64,000 nt of DNA from an uncultured Pelagibacteraceae bacterium (GCA_902551755.1 CACDEB010000002.1:62001-126000), one strand, 5' to 3'. Shown: positions 42,453 through 50,316, counted from the stretch's first letter. Notes: generated by a model from the sequence alone, not told the origin. Numbers and translations: made by a program.

Positions 42453-42538
42453 TGGTGCCCTCGGCCAGACTCGAACTGGCACTCCCAAAAGGGCAAGGAT
42501 TTTAAGTCCTTTGTGTCTACCAATTTCACCACGAGGGC
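42453..42538 (-). tRNA. tRNA-Leu (UAA anticodon), integration target
   Basis: An 86-base class II tRNA on the minus strand with encoded CCA. It starts GCCCTCG, pairs with CGAGGGC, has a variable arm, and the anticodon loop reads CTTAAAA. Bases 42500-42538, from the 5' end to the 3' edge of the anticodon loop, are part of the 41-base repeat also found at 50276. This copy is complete and should be functional, but its 5' half and everything upstream of it came from the integrated element. Confidence 0.95.
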
Positions 42539-42540
42539 AT
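42500..42540. repeat. attachment-site repeat, left copy (attL core)
   Basis: A 41-base sequence identical to 50276-50316 in direct orientation. It starts exactly at the anticodon loop (TTTTAAG on the plus strand), covers the 5' half of tRNA-Leu and extends two bases past the tRNA 5' end. The anticodon stem arms AAGGA/TCCTT on both sides of the loop give the symmetric site typical of tyrosine integrases that cross over in the anticodon loop. Confidence 0.92.
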
Positions 42541-42613
42541 TGTTAAAAAAGTCTTGAAATTTCATTGTTTTTTATATTCTTGTCTTAACATAGTCTATTA
42601 AAAAAATAAATTT

Positions 42614-42644
42614 ATCTCTCTAGTTTCTAGTTTGTTTCTAGTTT
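42614..42644. repeat. candidate integrase arm sites, left pair
   Basis: Two exact tandem copies of GTTTCTAGTTT (42623-42633 and 42634-42644), 85-104 bases from the att core. The 20-base stretch 42614-42633 is repeated without mismatch and in the same orientation at 50119-50138, near the other end. Placement on both sides of the core in the excised circle resembles the arm sites of lambda-type integrases. Confidence 0.55.
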
Positions 42645-42683
42645 GGAGTCTTTTCGGTTTGTATTTATCTATGTTTTTAGAGT

Positions 42684-42694
42684 CTTGGACCAAG
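42684..42694. repeat. short palindrome CTTGGaCCAAG
   Basis: A perfect 5+1+5 palindrome within the non-coding region. The same CTTGG/CCAAG arms reappear with a four-base loop at 42810-42823, so the motif may be a binding site for an element regulator. Confidence 0.35.
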
Positions 42695-42786
42695 GAAAAA
42701 TTAAACTCAAAAAGATAGTGTTTACTTATAAAACTAGAGTCAAAATTGAAATCCAGGGTTACCTAAATGTTCTCACTATAAAGCTC

Positions 42787-42823
42787 GTCCGTGCTGTTGC
42801 ACGGACTCGCTTGGATCACCAAG
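42787..42823. other. two adjacent perfect hairpins
   Basis: The first is an eight-base-pair perfect stem GTCCGTGC/GCACGGAC with a four-base loop (42787-42806). Three bases later comes a five-base-pair stem CTTGG/CCAAG with a four-base loop (42810-42823), immediately followed by the first GGGATCCTAA. The first is GC-rich against an AT-rich background and has no T-run on either side, so it is unlikely to be a simple terminator. A replication or processing structure is possible. Confidence 0.6.
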
Positions 42824-42824
42824 A

Positions 42825-43064
42825 GGGATCCTAACGAAACGTCAATCCTGGAGTCTTTTAGACCCCCTTACACCCCTTTTTTAGAAAGGGATCCTAATAG
42901 TTAGACCTATATAGCAAGTTAGACAAAGTCATAGACGTTGAAATCATTTTGAGTCTCAAAAAATATTATAAAAAAATTTTTTAAAATTTTATTTGAAAAG
43001 GCTCCCTGCATTGTAAATATTTTAGAAATCGGTAGGCAACCAGATCGCAATACAGGGATCCTAA
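42825..43064. repeat. GGGATCCTAA repeat, three copies
   Basis: Exact ten-base copies at 42825-42834, 42888-42897 and 43055-43064, all in the same orientation. They lie within 240 bases of the non-coding region; one follows the double hairpin directly. A candidate initiator or regulator binding repeat. Confidence 0.6.
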
Positions 43065-43132
43065 AGGTATTATTAACGATCCTTGTTGTATCATACTAGG
43101 CTCACGGATCAAGGAACAAGGTTAGTATTTGG

Positions 43133-43150
43133 AGTCCAACAAAGTCCAAC
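43133..43150. repeat. helically phased AGTCCAAC motifs
   Basis: AGTCCAAC occurs at 43133 and again exactly 10 bases later at 43143. Two weaker relatives (AGTCCTGC near 43152 and TGTCCAGC near 43162) continue the roughly 10-base spacing. Such phasing on one helix face is typical of iteron-like protein-binding arrays. Confidence 0.45.
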
Positions 43151-43184
43151 TAGTCCTGCTATGTCCAGCCTCTCACTCTCGTAC

Positions 43185-43476
43185 AAAACGTAACTTAATT
43201 CTCGTACAGGATAGTCTAATTCAAAGTAAGAAAACGTAACTTTTGATTTACGTTGATAGTCTCATTCACCAGGATTAAACGTTACAAAAGGTTACCATTG
43301 GTTAGTATGAATTCAAGCTAACATTAGTTAAGTTTTAGGGATCTCTAGGGTACATTAGGTAACATCAGCCTAGGAAAAGTATACATTTGTATACCCTGTT
43401 AAGCCTTTTAAAGTCCACATAAGTCCACATTAAATACTTTTTCAAAAGGTTTTTTGTAAGATTTTAGTTACGTTTT
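43185..43476. repeat. AAAACGTAAC iteron-like repeats
   Basis: Exact 12-base copies of AAAACGTAACTT at 43185-43196 and 43231-43242, plus an inverted ten-base copy GTTACGTTTT at 43467-43476. A related AAACGTTAC lies near 43278. CTCGTACA precedes the first copy (43178) and recurs at 43201. Confidence 0.55.
43411..43430. repeat. tandem ten-base repeat AAGTCCACAT
   Basis: Two exact adjacent copies (43411-43420, 43421-43430). The AGTCC core is shared with the phased motifs at 43133-43162, suggesting one binding protein for both clusters. Confidence 0.5.
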
Positions 43477-43655
43477 TGTGTTTTAGGTGTACTAGGTTTA
43501 CACTTTTATAGACTAGTCTGGGCTCCCTTAATTCATATCAAGGAATGCTAGAGAAACTATACTAACTAGGCTACTAGGCTCAACAGAAAAACTAATCTCT
43601 TATCTTTTAACAATTAGACAGAAGTTAGACGGAAGTTTTATTCAAGGTTAGTAGG

Positions 43656-43997
43656 TTAGTTATCTTCTAGTAAATTAAAAAAGTGTTCCATATCAATAAT
43701 AACTAAAGGTTTTTTCCTATTCATTTTAACAACTAGTAACGGCTCTAGTGGTCCGTGGTTTTTGGTTTGTTTAAAATGTTTATATATGGTCCTGTATTCT
43801 TCTCTGTTCTTACATTCAACATTATAGGGAAACAACTTTCTAGCAATCAAAGTTAAGAGCTTAATATCAGCTCCATTCTCATTAGCTCCAGGGCACTTAA
43901 TATCTTCCTTGGTCAATGTAGGAAACATCTTGATTATCCGATCACGGACCAGGTTCTGTAAGTATCTTGCTTTTTGTAGTCTAGATTTATTGTTCAT
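43656..43997 (-). CDS. small PD-(D/E)XK-like nuclease, putative
   Basis: A 113-residue protein ending the element's gene array. The segment GADIKLLTLIARKLFPYNVE followed by CK gives D44, E61 and K63, the spacing of a PD-(D/E)XK active site. The following strand EPLLVVKMNRKKPLVIID fits the nuclease core. Small proteins of this kind serve as phage resolvases or DNA-processing nucleases. It overlaps the primase-helicase stop by four bases, which supports a role in replication or resolution of replicated DNA. The family call rests on motif reading only. Confidence 0.6.
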   Translation of the reverse strand: MNNKSRLQKARYLQNLVRDRIIKMFPTLTKEDIKCPGANENGADIKLLTLIARKLFPYNVECKNREEYRTIYKHFKQTKNHGPLEPLLVVKMNRKKPLVIIDMEHFFNLLEDN

Positions 43998-46273
43998 TTT
44001 TGATCTGGGTATAATGGAACATAAAACTCATTAGCCAGGTCTTGTGCTGATCTATTGTGATATTGTTCCTGTTTTCTGATTAAATACAACGTAGGTCTAA
44101 TTAATTGTTGTTCCTTGTTGTTAGATACGTGGATCTTAACTTGTCCTAATCCACGTCCACCTATGCTGATTAATGCGTCTTTAACCTCATTTAATCTTCC
44201 TGGTGTTTTAGGTTTATTTTTCTCTAACCATTCGTGTAACTCTCTTGATCCAATAACAATACGATCTTCTGTAAATGGAAACTCACATTCCTCGTATAAT
44301 GTTCTGATCTGTGCTGTAAGTGGGTGTTCCCCTGCCTCTGACATTGATTGTAGAAATGGAGTCTTTGGAGCTATACCTTTTGGATTAAAACTTTCAGAGA
44401 TCTCTCTATTTTCTAATTCATAAAGTATTTCATTTGCTCCCTGGTTATCTAACCATTGGTGGTACTCATCATAAAAACTCTGCTCCATTCTAGGACGTTC
44501 AGATATGTAAACCCAATATCTCACATCATTAGCAGGAAGAGATAATGCGTCTTTGTTATTTGAGAAAATAATATAGTTCGTGCAGGTCTCAACTTCTCTG
44601 TATTCTTTGTAAAGCTCTCTAACGTTAATTACATCTTCGGTTATTATTCTTTTCAAATCATTTAATAATTTTTTCTTTTCATCAAAGTTTCCTTTTGATT
44701 GTGTTTCATCAATTAAACAAAGCTGACTATCTATTAAGAAAGTTTTAGATCTATCAACAGCCTGGTTAATATCTATCTCTCTGGTGTTGTTCTTACCAAT
44801 AGTTAACTTCATAGCTCTAAAGATTGATCCTTTTCCTACTTGGTAATGTGGAGTAACTAATATCAATCCATATCTAATTTTAATTCCTGGGTGTTGAACC
44901 ATATAAGCCCAGTAATCTAGAAAGTGGTCTATGTATTCTTTTTGTTTGTTAAAGATATGATCTAATAATTTATGTAATAAACTTGTATCACCTTTCGTTG
45001 CCTCAATGTTATTTGGTTTCCAACTATTAAGATATTTTAAGTTACCTCTGTAAAATATTGGATCACCTGGATTATATTCTGTTGGTTTACATACCCAGGT
45101 CTCAACTATCTTTCTATTTGGAATAGTCTTTAGCCAATTAGTACAGGCAACTCTTTGATTGAAATGTATTGCGTTCTCATAATTGATAGCCTCTTTTGAA
45201 TATTCTTTTCCTTTTTCAATATCATAAAACTTATCTACGTCTTTGATATAGACCAGGTTCTCAACTATCTTTTTTCTAGCATAACGAGGCTCTTCAATAT
45301 CAAATTTAGATCTAGCTCTTTGGACCTTTTTAAGAAAGTAATCATCTTCGTAAGCCTCACCTAAATACTCTCTAATCTTTTCAAGTATTACGTCATTGTC
45401 TAACTTTCCAACAACCATTTTACCAACTGATAACGTAACTAAATCATCATAGTAACTATCATCATCAAGACTCATTTTCTCATCTCTAATCTTTTTGAGT
45501 ATAGCCGTGTATGTCATATCTTGGATTTCAGGATCATTCATAGATCCCTCATCAAATTCTGGTGTATGTCCGAGTGGTTTAGTGGGATCTTCTTTTACAT
45601 CTTCATAGTCGTATTCGTTTAATTCTTCTTTGGTTAGTAAGTTATTTTCAACATTCCTAATAAATTGTTCTACATCTAACTCAAAGATTTCTGTTTTCTT
45701 GTGTGGGTTAACTACAATTCCTATTCCTGTTTGTCCCTTTTGTGAATGTAAGTTCCAGGCTCTATAAGGTATCTTTATTCCATTCCCTATCTCATCACCC
45801 TCAACTCTGTCTTGTTTAGGAAATATTTCTGTCTTTGGACTTAAACCTAAATACTTACAAATCTTTCGTAAGAAATTTCTCATTGTGTTACAGGACACAT
45901 AAGAATTCTCACCTATAAATGCGTAGATATGCAATCCTCTACTCTCTGAATAACAAGGGTGTAATTTATATTGTCTACACTTATCAATTATCGTGAGCTT
46001 TGTTTCTCGGTCCATATCGTAAGTGTCAACGTCTATTGCACCAAAACAACATTGATCCTCGTCTACAATAGGACTAGGGACTAATCCGTGTTCAGTTCTA
46101 TAATGGTTTGAGTAATGTTGTTCTTGTAATGGCTCTCTTATTCTTTGGTAATCAAAAAGTTTCTTTCCGTCTTTTCTAGTTCTTTTTAGATCAACTGCTT
46201 TGTAGCCGTTCTTTGCAAAAAATATGTTATGAAGTTTTTCTATTATCTCTTGCGAGTTCAATATTTCTGTCAT
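43994..46273 (-). CDS. primase-polymerase / SF3 helicase fusion, element replication protein
   Basis: A 759-residue protein, the largest of the element. The N-terminal archaeo-eukaryotic-type primase domain shows D81-x-D83 (GAIDVDTYD), SRGLHIYAF (residues 111-119) and EIFPKQ with GNGIKIPY (residues 149-170), the three catalytic blocks. A D5_N-like linker follows. The C-terminal SF3/D5 helicase has a Walker A QVGKGS (G480, K481, G482, S483), a Walker B LIDE (D522, E523) and motif C FSNN (N572, N573). It should open the element's origin, unwind DNA and prime replication, like P4 alpha or D5-type proteins. Its start lies 47 bases inside the preceding RHH-like gene. Confidence 0.88.
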   Translation of the reverse strand: MTEILNSQEIIEKLHNIFFAKNGYKAVDLKRTRKDGKKLFDYQRIREPLQEQHYSNHYRTEHGLVPSPIVDEDQCCFGAIDVDTYDMDRETKLTIIDKCRQYKLHPCYSESRGLHIYAFIGENSYVSCNTMRNFLRKICKYLGLSPKTEIFPKQDRVEGDEIGNGIKIPYRAWNLHSQKGQTGIGIVVNPHKKTEIFELDVEQFIRNVENNLLTKEELNEYDYEDVKEDPTKPLGHTPEFDEGSMNDPEIQDMTYTAILKKIRDEKMSLDDDSYYDDLVTLSVGKMVVGKLDNDVILEKIREYLGEAYEDDYFLKKVQRARSKFDIEEPRYARKKIVENLVYIKDVDKFYDIEKGKEYSKEAINYENAIHFNQRVACTNWLKTIPNRKIVETWVCKPTEYNPGDPIFYRGNLKYLNSWKPNNIEATKGDTSLLHKLLDHIFNKQKEYIDHFLDYWAYMVQHPGIKIRYGLILVTPHYQVGKGSIFRAMKLTIGKNNTREIDINQAVDRSKTFLIDSQLCLIDETQSKGNFDEKKKLLNDLKRIITEDVINVRELYKEYREVETCTNYIIFSNNKDALSLPANDVRYWVYISERPRMEQSFYDEYHQWLDNQGANEILYELENREISESFNPKGIAPKTPFLQSMSEAGEHPLTAQIRTLYEECEFPFTEDRIVIGSRELHEWLEKNKPKTPGRLNEVKDALISIGGRGLGQVKIHVSNNKEQQLIRPTLYLIRKQEQYHNRSAQDLANEFYVPLYPDQK

Positions 46274-46424
46274 TGTTAATAATTCCTTTTTGTGCTGACG
46301 TGGTTAATATCTCTATTGTTTTAGGTATTGAGATTTTGATACCTGGAATGATCTTGCCTGACAGATCATCTAATCTTGCTAATACAGATTTCTTTAATGC
46401 AACTGATGTAAATTTACTTCTCAT
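46227..46424 (-). CDS. ribbon-helix-helix-like small protein
   Basis: A 65-residue protein. The order strand-helix-helix in KFTSVALKKSVLARLDDLSG and IKISIPKTIEILTTSA resembles the RHH/CopG DNA-binding fold, in which a short N-terminal strand contacts DNA in a dimer. It precedes the replication gene and overlaps it by 47 bases, so it may regulate copy number or replication. The assignment is by pattern only; the unusual long overlap leaves some doubt about the precise ends. Confidence 0.5.
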   Translation of the reverse strand: MRSKFTSVALKKSVLARLDDLSGKIIPGIKISIPKTIEILTTSAQKGIINNDRNIELARDNRKTS

Positions 46425-46429
46425 AGTGT

Positions 46430-46666
46430 TTAATTATCTACTCTTTCTGGGTTCCAAAACTCTGCGAAATCCTTTGTCCTTTGTGATTTAATTACGTCCT
46501 GGAGCTCATAAATCTTATTAGTTAGTTTTGTTATTCTCTCGTTTTTGAGTCCTATCTCGGTCCATAGTTCCTGGATATGTGTTGATTGTTTTCCTAGTGT
46601 ATCTGTAAGTCTATCTGTAATAGATCCTTGTTGTTCAATCATATATTTTAATTCGTACTTATTCAT
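46430..46666 (-). CDS. small coiled-coil protein of unknown function
   Basis: I do not recognise this gene. The 78-residue product is predicted helical, with a heptad-like pattern through LWTEIGLKNERITKLTNKIY. It has charged ends and no cysteine or signal peptide. It overlaps the upstream 247-residue gene by eight bases and ends five bases before the RHH-like gene, so it is part of the same transcript. Confidence 0.6.
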   Translation of the reverse strand: MNKYELKYMIEQQGSITDRLTDTLGKQSTHIQELWTEIGLKNERITKLTNKIYELQDVIKSQRTKDFAEFWNPERVDN

Positions 46667-47402
46667 CTATACCCAACAGATAAGCTAATCCCCCTTGCCT
46701 CTCTGCCTTTGCTCTTCGTTGATCTTCCAACATCTCTTGAAATTGTTGTTCTCTAATTTTATCTTCTATTGTTTGTTCAATAGGTTTAAAGTTTTGTGTG
46801 AGTATTGTTGTGTCTACTTTTGGAATTGTAACTTCTGGTGGTTTATAAGCTGAAATAAATCTTTTTTCTTTTTCAGTAAAATATTTTCTTTGGTTTGGAT
46901 CTTTGTATTTATCTCGTAAGTATTTCCTCATTTCTTTTTTTTCCCTCGCTGTGCCAGATTTGATTGTTGTATCTAATATTAAATCCCAACTAGATATTCT
47001 TTGTCTTTGGTCCCTGTCGCTAGGATAACTAGAGGGATCATTATTATTGAACGGCTTTGGTCTCTTTCCGTAATTCTCTTCGTCTATAATATTTGGATTG
47101 TTGTAGTGTAGTGGTGGTTTGTCGTTTGGCTTTCCGTCATATTGGTAAACCATTCTTTGTATTCTCTCATCTAGGTTTTCTTTTCTAACTATTGGTTTAG
47201 ATCCGTCTTTAAACTTTTTAATTGTTTGTGTCTTTGGTGGTACGGCTCCAGGCTTACGTACAGGGACATCTTTTTTCTTTTCAGAAAAATCAAACTCTAA
47301 TTGTTTGTATTCTTTTTTCTTACCCAGGTTATCTGCAATCTTTGTGAAAGGTTTCTCATCATCAATTAAAGTGTTATTTATGGGATCTACAATATAAGCC
47401 AT
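46659..47402 (-). CDS. hydrophilic, largely disordered protein of unknown function
   Basis: I do not recognise this 247-residue protein. It is rich in Lys, Asp, Pro, Gln and Asn, with long stretches of low complexity and no membrane segment. A moderately ordered centre (SSWDLILDTTIKSGTAREKK) and a helical C-terminus ending QGGLAYLLGIDE are visible. Gly-rich C-terminal endings of this kind occur, as far as I recall, in small proteins of marine phages, but that is weak evidence. In a satellite this would be a candidate for interaction with helper-phage packaging or virion proteins; nothing in the sequence proves it. Confidence 0.6.
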   Translation of the reverse strand: MAYIVDPINNTLIDDEKPFTKIADNLGKKKEYKQLEFDFSEKKKDVPVRKPGAVPPKTQTIKKFKDGSKPIVRKENLDERIQRMVYQYDGKPNDKPPLHYNNPNIIDEENYGKRPKPFNNNDPSSYPSDRDQRQRISSWDLILDTTIKSGTAREKKEMRKYLRDKYKDPNQRKYFTEKEKRFISAYKPPEVTIPKVDTTILTQNFKPIEQTIEDKIREQQFQEMLEDQRRAKAERQGGLAYLLGIDE

Positions 47403-47404
47403 TA

Positions 47405-47758
47405 TTATTTGTCCTTTAGCTTTTCTAGTAGTTCGGCTTTTCTAACTCGTTCTATGTATTTAGTTAGATCTTCACCAGGCATTACATCTATTCCCTTTTC
47501 AAATGCGTCTAGTAACTCTTCGTATTTCTCACCAACAGATCCACCATTATTCAATTCAATTCTTTTGAGTTCGTCTAGTGGTTTACTCTTTAGCCAATCA
47601 GAGAAACTTTGTCCTTTGGACTTCTCTTTCTCATACATTTCTTTCAGAGAATTAAGTAGGTCCTGTTGAACATCAAATTCAATCTTTTCTAGATCTGCCA
47701 TTAATCCTTTTCCGTCTTTGCTCTCTAGTGGTTTGTCTATGTTGTTAAGTGGTTTCAT
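47405..47758 (-). CDS. helical protein of unknown function
   Basis: I do not recognise this 117-residue protein. It is mostly helical and charged, with the segments YEKEKSKGQSFSDWLKSKP and RIELNNGGSVGEKYEELLDA. It overlaps the AlpA-type gene by four bases (ATGA) and is followed after two bases by the disordered protein, so all three are translationally linked. Confidence 0.6.
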   Translation of the reverse strand: MKPLNNIDKPLESKDGKGLMADLEKIEFDVQQDLLNSLKEMYEKEKSKGQSFSDWLKSKPLDELKRIELNNGGSVGEKYEELLDAFEKGIDVMPGEDLTKYIERVRKAELLEKLKDK

Positions 47759-48033
47759 TGTTTTATTTTCTTTAGTGTTTGGATTGCTATTACTTTGTCC
47801 TGGAGTTCGTAATCGTATTTAACTTTTTTATTTGCTTTGTGTTCCTGTAACCAATTCACAAAGATAACAGGATCCCACACTACTAATCGTGGACCGAGGA
47901 TCACCTTACCCATTAAAGCAGGATCATTCCCTTGGCTTATCCATTCATTTTGAAATCTATAAAATGTTGCTTTTGATATGCTAAACAACTTTAAGATCTG
48001 CCAGGACTTGCAATATTTTTGTTTAAATTCCAT
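47755..48033 (-). CDS. AlpA/MerR-like helix-turn-helix regulator or excisionase
   Basis: A 92-residue protein. SWQILKLFSISKATFYRFQN (about residues 10-29) forms a winged-helix-type HTH, and GKVILGPRLVVWDPVIFVNW resembles the wing and trailing strand of AlpA-type proteins. AlpA of P4-like satellites switches on int and excision; excisionases share this fold. It is the first gene of a tightly coupled run after a 42-base gap and is a candidate control switch of the element. Confidence 0.65.
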   Translation of the reverse strand: MEFKQKYCKSWQILKLFSISKATFYRFQNEWISQGNDPALMGKVILGPRLVVWDPVIFVNWLQEHKANKKVKYDYELQDKVIAIQTLKKIKQ

Positions 48034-48075
48034 ATCACCTGGATATGAAAAAATATTATAAAATAATACGTAGAG

Positions 48076-48417
48076 TTATTTAGTTTTATTAAGTCTACTT
48101 TTTTTCAAATAGGTCTTAATTGTAGGGTACTTTTTAAGATAACTTCTAGATTTAAAATCCTTTAGCCAACGTTCAACGTGCTTATAGTAGAATGCTTTGA
48201 GTCTATCTTGACTAGATTTAAAATGTTTTATTTGTTGTGGTGTCTTTCTGTGAAACAACATTAGATCATCAAAAGCCTCGTGCTTTGATAATTGATACCA
48301 GGCTTTCAAGGGTGATATATTTTCTTTTGTAACTATTTCTATGATCTTTAGAGTAACTAAAACTCTAACATTAATATTGATCCGAGGTTGACCTCGTTTC
48401 TTCTTCCTGGTTGCCAT
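48076..48417 (-). CDS. basic protein of unknown function
   Basis: I do not recognise this 113-residue protein. It is strongly basic, with a Lys/Arg-rich N-terminus and C-terminal tail and a helical middle (VTLKIIEIVTKENISPLKAW) that could include a DNA-binding helix. It overlaps the zinc-ribbon gene by 47 bases, in a different frame. Confidence 0.55.
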   Translation of the reverse strand: MATRKKKRGQPRININVRVLVTLKIIEIVTKENISPLKAWYQLSKHEAFDDLMLFHRKTPQQIKHFKSSQDRLKAFYYKHVERWLKDFKSRSYLKKYPTIKTYLKKSRLNKTK

Positions 48418-48574
48418 TCAAGGTTATAGCATTAGCCTTGAAACATTTCACACAAATATTTCCTTTCTGTTTCCCATATTGAACAACACCTATGATCTTT
48501 CCCATTCTGTTACAATTAAAACAAAGATCTTTTTCGTTACTTAAATTTAAGCACTTTGCTAACTTGTTCTGCAT
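48371..48574 (-). CDS. small zinc-ribbon-like protein
   Basis: A 67-residue protein with two CxxC pairs (C18, C21 and C41, C44) separated by 19 residues, the layout of a zinc ribbon. Function unknown; zinc ribbons in mobile elements often act as DNA-binding regulators. Its start lies 38 bases inside the end of the integrase gene and its end overlaps the basic protein by 47 bases. Confidence 0.6.
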   Translation of the reverse strand: MQNKLAKCLNLSNEKDLCFNCNRMGKIIGVVQYGKQKGNICVKCFKANAITLNGNQEEETRSTSDQY

Positions 48575-50174
48575 ATTCCCTCACTTGTTCTGGTGTATGT
48601 TTATCATAATAAGTCTCTAGTGTGCTTTCCTGGTTATGTCCTGTTAACTGAATAGCTTTACTACTTGTACCAAGAGTAAGTTTAGCAATAGAGCTATAAG
48701 TCTTTCTCAACATCTTCGGAGCACCATTAATATTAGTTAGATCTTTTAATGCTTTCCAACACCCTCGTAATTCTCTGGTCCTGCATTGATCTGAACGGAC
48801 ATATTTATCTGAATGTAACTTCTTTGAATTAATTCTTGTTGTAGGAAATAACCAATCAACAAATCTATATTTCTGATAAGTGGTTTCTAGTTTCTTGTCT
48901 AACATATCAAGGACCACGGATATAGGATCAGTAATATAAATAATCTCTTCTTTTCTAGCTTTAGTTATTCCTGCAGGAAGTATTATTCTAGTTTTATCTT
49001 TTGTTATATGGGATCTTCTTATCTTCAAAGTCTCTTCGGCTCTTCGTCCTGTTACCAACATAAAGAGTAGAGCCTCGCTTTGAAATGGATATTTGTCAGC
49101 TAGATTAATTAATGTTGTGTAAATTGTTTTTAATTCGTCATCAGTAAATCTCTGATTATTATATCTAGTTCCAGGTGATTGTTTTAATGTAGGTTTAATT
49201 AGTCTTAATTTGTTTACAGGGTTATCAGGAATATCTTTAGAAAATAAATCTCTAGTATTAGCAAAAGCCCAGAGAGTTCTAAAAGCCTCTTTTAGTTTGT
49301 CCTGTTGTCCCCAACTCTTTTCTGTTGAGTTAAAAAATATCTTTAATTTTCTTGTAGTTAAGTCATCAATCTTTGTTTGTCCTATTGCACTATCATAAAC
49401 AGATCTCTCATCATTCTTATTCAAATAGTGTGGAGCTTTAATTATTCCGTGTCCTGCAGGAAACTTTTTAAATAAATCGTCCCAATCTTCTGGTCTCTTT
49501 GTTCTTTTCTTTTCGTGGTGTGTGAATGCTATTACCCCTGATCCTGTATGATCTTCTGAATAAACCAGGTGTTGTGATCGCCAATTATAACCAATTAAAA
49601 ATTTAATATGATCTCTGATTGATGTTGCTGATAATCTTCTGTCAGATCTAGCACTAGGGAAATTAGCCTTACACAATCTTTCTATAACTTGATTAATGGT
49701 TAATGTTTCCTGGTCCCTAATATTATCTTCTTTGATCTTGCTCTCTTCTTGTTGGATCGTGGAACGAGGATCTTTGATCCATAATCCTTTGTCGTTAGTG
49801 TGAGCTTTATAGATCTCAAATACTTTATCCTCACATTGTCTTACACCAAATTTATCAGGAACGAATTGACCAATAGTTATATAATCAGCTTTGCTCTGAT
49901 ACCAAAACTGCAACACAAAAAACTTATTATTTGATTTTCTTGCCTGTCTTAACTTAATCCCTTTGAGATAAGAATTCTTTGTTACATCAAAAGGGGTAAT
50001 TGTATGATTTCTAATTCCTATGATGTTTCCGTCTTTGTCTAGCTTATGATAACTGCTTTGATAATTGTTTATCGCAAAGTCTGTAAATTTTAATTTAAAC
50101 TTGTTTCTAGTTTTCAGGATCTCTCTAGTTTCTAGTTTAAGATCTAGTTTGCTATCGGTTTCTTTCTGGCTCAT
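48537..50174 (-). CDS. int: tyrosine integrase, long form
   Basis: A 545-residue phage-type tyrosine recombinase. About 150 N-terminal residues form an arm-binding-like region, then a core-binding helical region, then the catalytic domain: R378 with E381 in TGRRAEETL, lysine near K405, MLR490 in place of HxLR, H513 in TGHNQESTLE and the nucleophile Y522 or Y523 in ETYYDK. The position usually His in HxxR is K487. It should catalyse integration and excision at tRNA-Leu. The gene starts 101 bases inside the right att site and reads away from it. Its 5' end carries two of the candidate arm sites. Confidence 0.93.
   Translation of the reverse strand: MSQKETDSKLDLKLETREILKTRNKFKLKFTDFAINNYQSSYHKLDKDGNIIGIRNHTITPFDVTKNSYLKGIKLRQARKSNNKFFVLQFWYQSKADYITIGQFVPDKFGVRQCEDKVFEIYKAHTNDKGLWIKDPRSTIQQEESKIKEDNIRDQETLTINQVIERLCKANFPSARSDRRLSATSIRDHIKFLIGYNWRSQHLVYSEDHTGSGVIAFTHHEKKRTKRPEDWDDLFKKFPAGHGIIKAPHYLNKNDERSVYDSAIGQTKIDDLTTRKLKIFFNSTEKSWGQQDKLKEAFRTLWAFANTRDLFSKDIPDNPVNKLRLIKPTLKQSPGTRYNNQRFTDDELKTIYTTLINLADKYPFQSEALLFMLVTGRRAEETLKIRRSHITKDKTRIILPAGITKARKEEIIYITDPISVVLDMLDKKLETTYQKYRFVDWLFPTTRINSKKLHSDKYVRSDQCRTRELRGCWKALKDLTNINGAPKMLRKTYSSIAKLTLGTSSKAIQLTGHNQESTLETYYDKHTPEQVREYAEQVSKVLKFK
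50103..50138. repeat. candidate integrase arm sites, right pair
   Basis: Two copies of GTTTCTAGTTT at 50103-50113 and 50128-50138, inside the first codons of the integrase gene. The 20 bases 50119-50138 equal 42614-42633 at the other end. One further copy of the 11-mer lies at 48883-48893 in the same gene, so the motif is not unique to the ends. Confidence 0.5.
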
Positions 50175-50236
50175 AGTCTACTTTCTAATCGTTCAAATAA
50201 TCTTATCAATTCTTTTCAAGATCTTTGAAACTCTAT

Positions 50237-50253
50237 GAGACTACCAGAGACTA
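50237..50253. repeat. phased GAGACTA motifs next to the right att core
   Basis: GAGACTA at 50237-50243 and 50247-50253, spaced ten bases, 23 to 39 bases from the att core and upstream of int. Placement and phasing suit an excisionase or regulator binding site. Confidence 0.4.
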
Positions 50254-50275
50254 ACTAAATTGTGAATCCTCTGCC

Positions 50276-50316
50276 TTTTAAGTCCTTTGTGTCTACCAAT
50301 TTCACCACGAGGGCAT
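50276..50316. repeat. attachment-site repeat, right copy (attR) with tRNA-Leu 5' fragment
   Basis: Identical to 42500-42540. On the minus strand it reads as the first 39 bases of tRNA-Leu, ending at the 3' edge of the anticodon loop, and then runs into element DNA. It cannot fold into a full tRNA. It marks the chromosomal 5' half that stayed behind at integration. The native upstream DNA of the tRNA continues beyond 50317. Confidence 0.9.

Follow-up and report, generated by a model that had tools for sequence, protein, structure and literature searches.

Phage-inducible chromosomal minimalist islands (PICMI) of the Vibrionaceae, for which int, alpA and prim suffice, average 6.7 kb and are always located at fis (PMC10803314). 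VEIMEs and tycheposons are named as further proposed families of marine satellites (PMC11389934). Here we describe an element of approximately 7.7 kb (positions 42541-50275) that is integrated at the tRNA-Leu gene of an uncultured Pelagibacteraceae bacterium of the SAR11 group. The analysis was based on a window of 64,000 nucleotides (GCA_902551755.1, CACDEB010000002.1:62001-126000), which is the whole stretch of DNA analysed. The evidence presented below makes it probable that this intact integrative element is phage-satellite-like and spreads in pelagiphage particles. Like PICMI, the element is of marine origin, has a size of about 7 kb, and carries an integrase, an AlpA-like gene and a primase but no capsid-remodelling gene; of the int/alpA/prim set, int and the primase are clear and the AlpA match is below threshold. 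In contrast to PICMI, it resides at tRNA-Leu in SAR11 instead of fis in Vibrionaceae, its primase is an AEP/SF3 primase-helicase, and it possesses a SAR11-specific module of three proteins, p117-p247-p78.

The window element is bounded by a perfect 41-bp direct repeat at 42500-42540 and 50276-50316 with an offset of 7,776 bp. An exact repeat search revealed no further perfect repeats of 41 bp within the examined region. A preliminary description of the sequence had placed ten minus-strand genes between two such copies, and both the exact repeat and ten minus-strand open reading frames (ORFs) were recovered. The repeat corresponds to positions 1-39 of tRNA-Leu(UAA) plus 2 bp, i.e. the 5' half of the tRNA, and the element therefore lies upstream of the tRNA, which is an unusual polarity. 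The occupied attachment gene is an intact tRNA-Leu(UAA) at 42453..42538 on the minus strand (ARAGORN; Rfam tRNA, 58.6 bits). It remains whole because the core copy adjoining the tRNA 3' half was kept (attL side, 42500..42540, minus strand). The second copy (attR side, 50276..50316, minus strand) is an orphan tRNA-Leu 5' half under the native promoter region, with upstream sequence like that of empty sites. Such an empty site occurs in a genome of the same genus (G340; L022/L159), in which AzlD, 68 bp, tRNA-Leu and the NAD kinase gene are contiguous. AzlD and NAD kinase of this genome are 83% and 86% identical to those of the window, and the sequence upstream of its tRNA-Leu resembles the window sequence beyond attR. 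An empty site in one genome and an occupied site in the other indicate a real insertion and argue against misassembly. Thus, direct repeats, an intact tRNA, an integrase and an empty site in a relative identify the locus as an integrative element. In a complete SAR11 genome (G078; L041/L157), no prophage is present at tRNA-Leu, only a different upstream region, which is non-native though no element is found there and may be a scar; at this locus, the match to NAD kinase contains a stop codon.

All ten ORFs were compared to Pfam and PHROGs, which support an integrase, an AEP primase fused to a DUF5906/SF3-type helicase, and a PDDEXK/RusA-like nuclease. The tyrosine integrase (545 aa, 48537..50174; PF00589 E=3e-10, phrog_1 E=4e-21) has R378, R490, H513 and Y523 conserved across its family (alignments A4 and A10), which we take to be the catalytic residues from the tyrosine-recombinase pattern. 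The primase-polymerase/helicase (759 aa, 43994..46273) matches PF22548 (E=5e-12) and PF19263 (E=4e-11), and the profile of its family matches the solved chains 7nqf/7nqd over the primase part (E=2e-5). The nuclease (113 aa, 43656..43997) matches phrog_244 (E=2e-11) and, below the cutoff, PDDEXK_15 (E=1e-4); a homologue that is 37% identical occurs in pelagiphage HTVC008M. The structure predicted for the nuclease of the element was of low confidence. The remaining ORFs have no confident family, among them the orphans p117, p247, p78, p113, p65 and a zinc-ribbon protein. No protein of the window element matched a virion, packaging, lysis or relaxase family in either database, in agreement with the earlier statement that no virion, packaging, lysis or conjugation gene is recognisable.

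Other SAR11 genomes contain elements that are syntenic, at least in part, with the window element and lack virion genes, including an element of ~10 kb at tRNA-Leu in SAG-MED01 (L013) and a related one in AG-447-P19 (L014). Others carry a different integrase and occupy the genes for tRNA-Asn (L012, 6.4 kb, 55-bp repeat), tRNA-Thr (L015, 7.7 kb, 49-bp repeat) and tRNA-Pro (L016, 7.7 kb, 24-bp repeat), so that the related elements at other tRNA sites for which the preliminary description had proposed a search do exist. The primase family is present in 7 of 397 SAR11 genomes and in 5 of the 140 good ones. SAG-MED01 and AG-457-P16, both GTDB species representatives, have a common element part that is 99.0% identical over 5.6 kb, and the DNA upstream of it is unrelated and does not align. 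With integration and replication genes and without virion genes, the window element and its relatives have the gene content of a satellite. In L013, a second segment of 2.9 kb (L013:5194-8230) with no recognised integrase lies between two 87-bp copies of the promoter plus tRNA-Leu 5' half and adjoins an array of prepilin-like genes, constituting a site of tandem cargo at this tRNA. The larger satellites (L013:11387-11956, L109, L113) possess a gene for a single-stranded DNA-binding protein of the T7 type, akin to that of temperate pelagiphages.

Excised forms were found in IMG/VR, a collection of viral-like contigs from metagenomes of all kinds. A pattern search with the DNA of the att core yielded 45 contigs, 6 of which carry relatives of the element. 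Searches of the same database with the primase alone gave no close match, the six-sequence primase alignment recovered only distant primases (18-30% identity), and integrase alignment A4 had no match. Three contigs are complete circles of 7,700 bp (L079), 7,849 bp (L108) and 8,914 bp (L115), the ends of which overlap perfectly by 99, 123 and 99 bp, respectively; each contains syntenic genes and a single core between both element arms, which is the arrangement of attP. A fourth (L134, on the same contig as L119) was closed to ~13.8 kb by means of L133, a contig of a different metagenome with 99-100% identity. An attP junction is present in all four, and neither a recognised virion gene nor a whole tRNA occurs in the IMG/VR relatives; no relative of any kind contained virion genes or proved to be part of a longer parent prophage. 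Since IMG/VR draws on all kinds of metagenomes, the circles prove excision or concatemers, not packaging. Beside its core, L134 bears variable cargo, including a 966-aa Mrr_cat_2-ResIII-Helicase_C protein. No methylase was recognised among the scanned neighbouring genes of this restriction-helicase (L119:9405-12305).

A further characteristic of the window element is the complete lack of numerous 4-mer and 5-mer palindromes, namely CATG, TCGA, CCGG, CGCG, GCGC, GGCC, CTNAG, ACNGT, GCNGC and CGNCG. Expected numbers were derived from 300 codon-preserving shuffles in which codons were exchanged among synonymous positions. CATG, TCGA, CTNAG and ACNGT were expected 11.6, 12.9, 16.7 and 6.9 times, respectively, and zero was reached in none of the 300 shuffles. 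A palindrome was regarded as avoided at an expectation of at least 5 and an observed count of less than 15% of the expectation. By this measure, 10 palindromes are avoided in the window element and 4-12 in other satellites, compared to 0 in each of seven host pieces. Per 7.7 kb, the medians were 5-10 in five of seven pelagiphages, the other two being HTVC200P (0) and HTVC119P (1), which avoid almost nothing. We take this avoidance as a sign that the element has repeatedly entered cells with restriction, and regard it as infectious and exposed to restriction. Avoidance of this phage-like kind speaks against an island that remains resident and against a dead prophage. The coding DNA of the window element contains more GATC, CTAG, CCNGG and GGNCC than expected, with GATC and CCNGG counts both above those of every codon-preserving shuffle. 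In the tRNA-Leu elements (window, L079, L108, L014, L115), GATC reaches 1.8-2.7 times and CCNGG 2.8-5.7 times the expectation. SAR11 phages and satellites (HTVC105P = L123, L145, L146; window; L013) lack whole sets of short palindromes, each group its own set.

The preliminary description had named temperate pelagiphages, which are known to use tRNA genes including tRNA-Leu, as plausible helpers. The cultured temperate pelagiphage HTVC105P (MH598804) has an exact copy of the 41-bp core, located between its genes for integrase and RNA polymerase, and the satellite and HTVC105P would therefore compete for one attB. Unlike the window element, HTVC105P is a 42-kb T7-like phage with virion genes and an unrelated integrase, and its behaviour towards GATC and CATG is opposite: it fully avoids GATC (0 in 42 kb), CCNGG and GGNCC without avoiding CATG, a pattern inverse to that of the window element. 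A comparison of the GG/GL motifs of p117 and p247 with the proteins of HTVC105P gave scattered GG[ILV] matches only, and a C-terminal GLxxL motif was absent. HTVC105P was considered as the helper and is not established as such, the att core alone being common to both while genes and fingerprint differ. HTVC010P avoids TCGA, CCGG, GCGC, GGCC, ACGT and CTNAG, but not GATC or CATG, and its fingerprint is nearer to that of the window element than the fingerprint of HTVC105P.

Several observations weigh against spread in pelagiphage particles. The circles belong to relatives with integrases that are 48-62% identical and not to this exact element, and taken alone they also fit a non-phage integrative element. 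No credible homologue of p117 or p247 was found in phages. HTVC105P shares no homologous genes with the element, and the genome carrying the element (92% complete) contains no PF03237 terminase. Packaging itself is inferred, and in an alternative reading the element moves without phage particles, by conjugative mobilisation, vesicles, transformation or in a tycheposon-like manner, the circles being transfer intermediates only. Circular intermediates are common among integrative elements, and SAR11 islands at tRNA-Leu hold tandem cargo, as in L013. We nevertheless regard this alternative as rather unlikely, as the avoidance is as strong as in phages and Pfam recognised no relaxase, conjugation or secretion gene either in the window element or in those relatives that were scanned, by which it also differs from integrative and conjugative or integrative and mobilisable elements. 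A minimal autonomous virus-like element with p247, p117 and p78 as unrecognised particle proteins would explain why three orphan proteins are retained across elements with different integrases; this is very improbable given that p247 is of low complexity and variable length, that its profile has no solved relative, that the low-confidence model of p117 has no credible fold match, and that no packaging ATPase was found. The small size and the restriction to integrase and replication genes might suggest a decayed prophage remnant, a reading we consider hardly credible in view of the intact ORFs, of relatives that are syntenic and similarly sized, and of complete circles with the same content.

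In function, the window element resembles PICMI and P4 satellites without qualifying as a member of either group. Like P4-like satellites, the window element has an integrase, an AlpA-like regulator, a primase-helicase and a tRNA site, and its relatives L015 and L016 have Arm-DNA-bind_3 integrases; in contrast to them, it has no psu, sid or delta recognisable by Pfam or PHROGs and no P2-like helper, and its host is SAR11. With phage-inducible chromosomal islands (PICI) it shares the form of a compact island with integrase, regulator, primase and replication, but no terS or capsid-redirecting gene was recognised by the same databases. Thus, the earlier match to the P4/PICI type is unsupported with respect to membership, the signature genes of both being absent from the Pfam and PHROG matches, whereas the satellite interpretation as such gained from the compact mobile form, the circles with attP, the lack of virion genes and the phage-like avoidance. 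Tycheposons use tRNA sites. The element resembles VEIMEs and tycheposons in being marine, integrase-bearing and satellite-like, a likeness drawn by description, and its family may be covered by the VEIME concept. Since it matched neither the fis site nor the P4 and PICI signatures, and with VEIMEs and tycheposons considered by description only, we classify it as a new form of the marine integrative phage satellites that is specific to SAR11, with a putative satellite role. The accessible literature, which did not extend to the original VEIME and tycheposon accounts, does not describe elements of this kind for SAR11.

Three core genes, all like the other ORFs on the minus strand, form the p117-p247-p78 module. 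p117 (117 aa, 47405..47758; alignment A5) has an invariant GG and was seen in SAR11 elements only; its profile had no match in a class-wide sample of 384 further genomes. Its structure model was of low confidence, and MogR matches to the profile (E ~0.01) were judged to be due to chance. p247 (247 aa, 46659..47402) is a low-complexity protein with a C-terminal GLxxLxG motif (alignment A7, 10 elements), and p78 (78 aa, 46430..46666), probably a coiled-coil protein, has homologues in L079, L115, L014 and L015. The AlpA-like helix-turn-helix protein (92 aa, 47755..48033; HTH_7 E=0.004, AlpA E=0.03, both sub-threshold) is a candidate regulator of excision or replication, and its L015 counterpart matches HTH_17 (E=0.003). 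The basic protein p113 (113 aa, 48076..48417) has homologues in L079, L115 and L014. A zinc-ribbon-like protein with CxxC...CxxC (67 aa, 48371..48574) has an L115 homologue (56% over 32 aa), and p65 (65 aa, 46227..46424) one in L013 (46% over 43 aa) with weaker matches in L115 and L113.

The non-coding end (42541..43655) comprises the att arm, a putative replacement promoter region for the tRNA next to the core, and candidate replication or regulatory DNA, as judged by comparison with the circles. This 1.1 kb, previously called repeat-rich, is not strongly repetitive; it holds three GGGATCCTA copies, a covarying hairpin and the conserved att arm. The terminal 107 bp adjoining the core are ~88% identical to circle L115, and a TTGANT-N17-TAAATA-like motif is kept in L079, L108 and L115 and is weaker in the window. 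A sigma-70 promoter scan of the element end performed no better than shuffles, and promoter replacement is thus inferred from comparison only. Duplication of the tRNA 5' half has left the native promoter region in front of the orphan copy and the integrase, and element DNA in front of the tRNA. In the integrated state, the end of the element would supply the promoter region for the essential tRNA-Leu, and the native promoter would drive the orphan 5' half and the integrase. The hairpin, GTCCGTGC-AACA-GCACGGAC (42787..42806, minus strand), lies ~247 bp from the core; in L079, L108 and L134 it reads GTCAATGC-AACA-GCATTGAC, two stem pairs differing from the window and both being compensated. It may be part of an origin.

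When a helper pelagiphage infects the cell, excision would be switched on by the AlpA-like protein, and the AEP/SF3 primase-helicase would replicate the excised circle. Helper particles would then package the element DNA, probably as multimers, and the p117-p247-p78 module and the nuclease may mediate sensing of, hijack of or interference with the helper. More tentatively, a class of satellites that is specific to SAR11 and occupies several tRNA sites might parasitise not-yet-paired pelagiphages, HTVC010P-like ones being closer in fingerprint than T7-like ones, by means of this module as a new hijack device; the avoidance fingerprint might then record the SAR11 restriction systems met and serve to match a satellite to its helper.

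SAR11 bacteria are among the most abundant bacteria and have famously small genomes. Judging from the avoidance, the mobile DNA of SAR11 seems to encounter many type II-like restriction activities around hosts that are regarded as poor in defence, and restriction-site avoidance offers a sequence-only test for infectious elements. If SAR11 phages have parasites of their own, these would be a third player in the phage-host dynamics of the ocean and, as the predicted restriction-helicase of L134 suggests, would give defence genes a means of transport among streamlined genomes.

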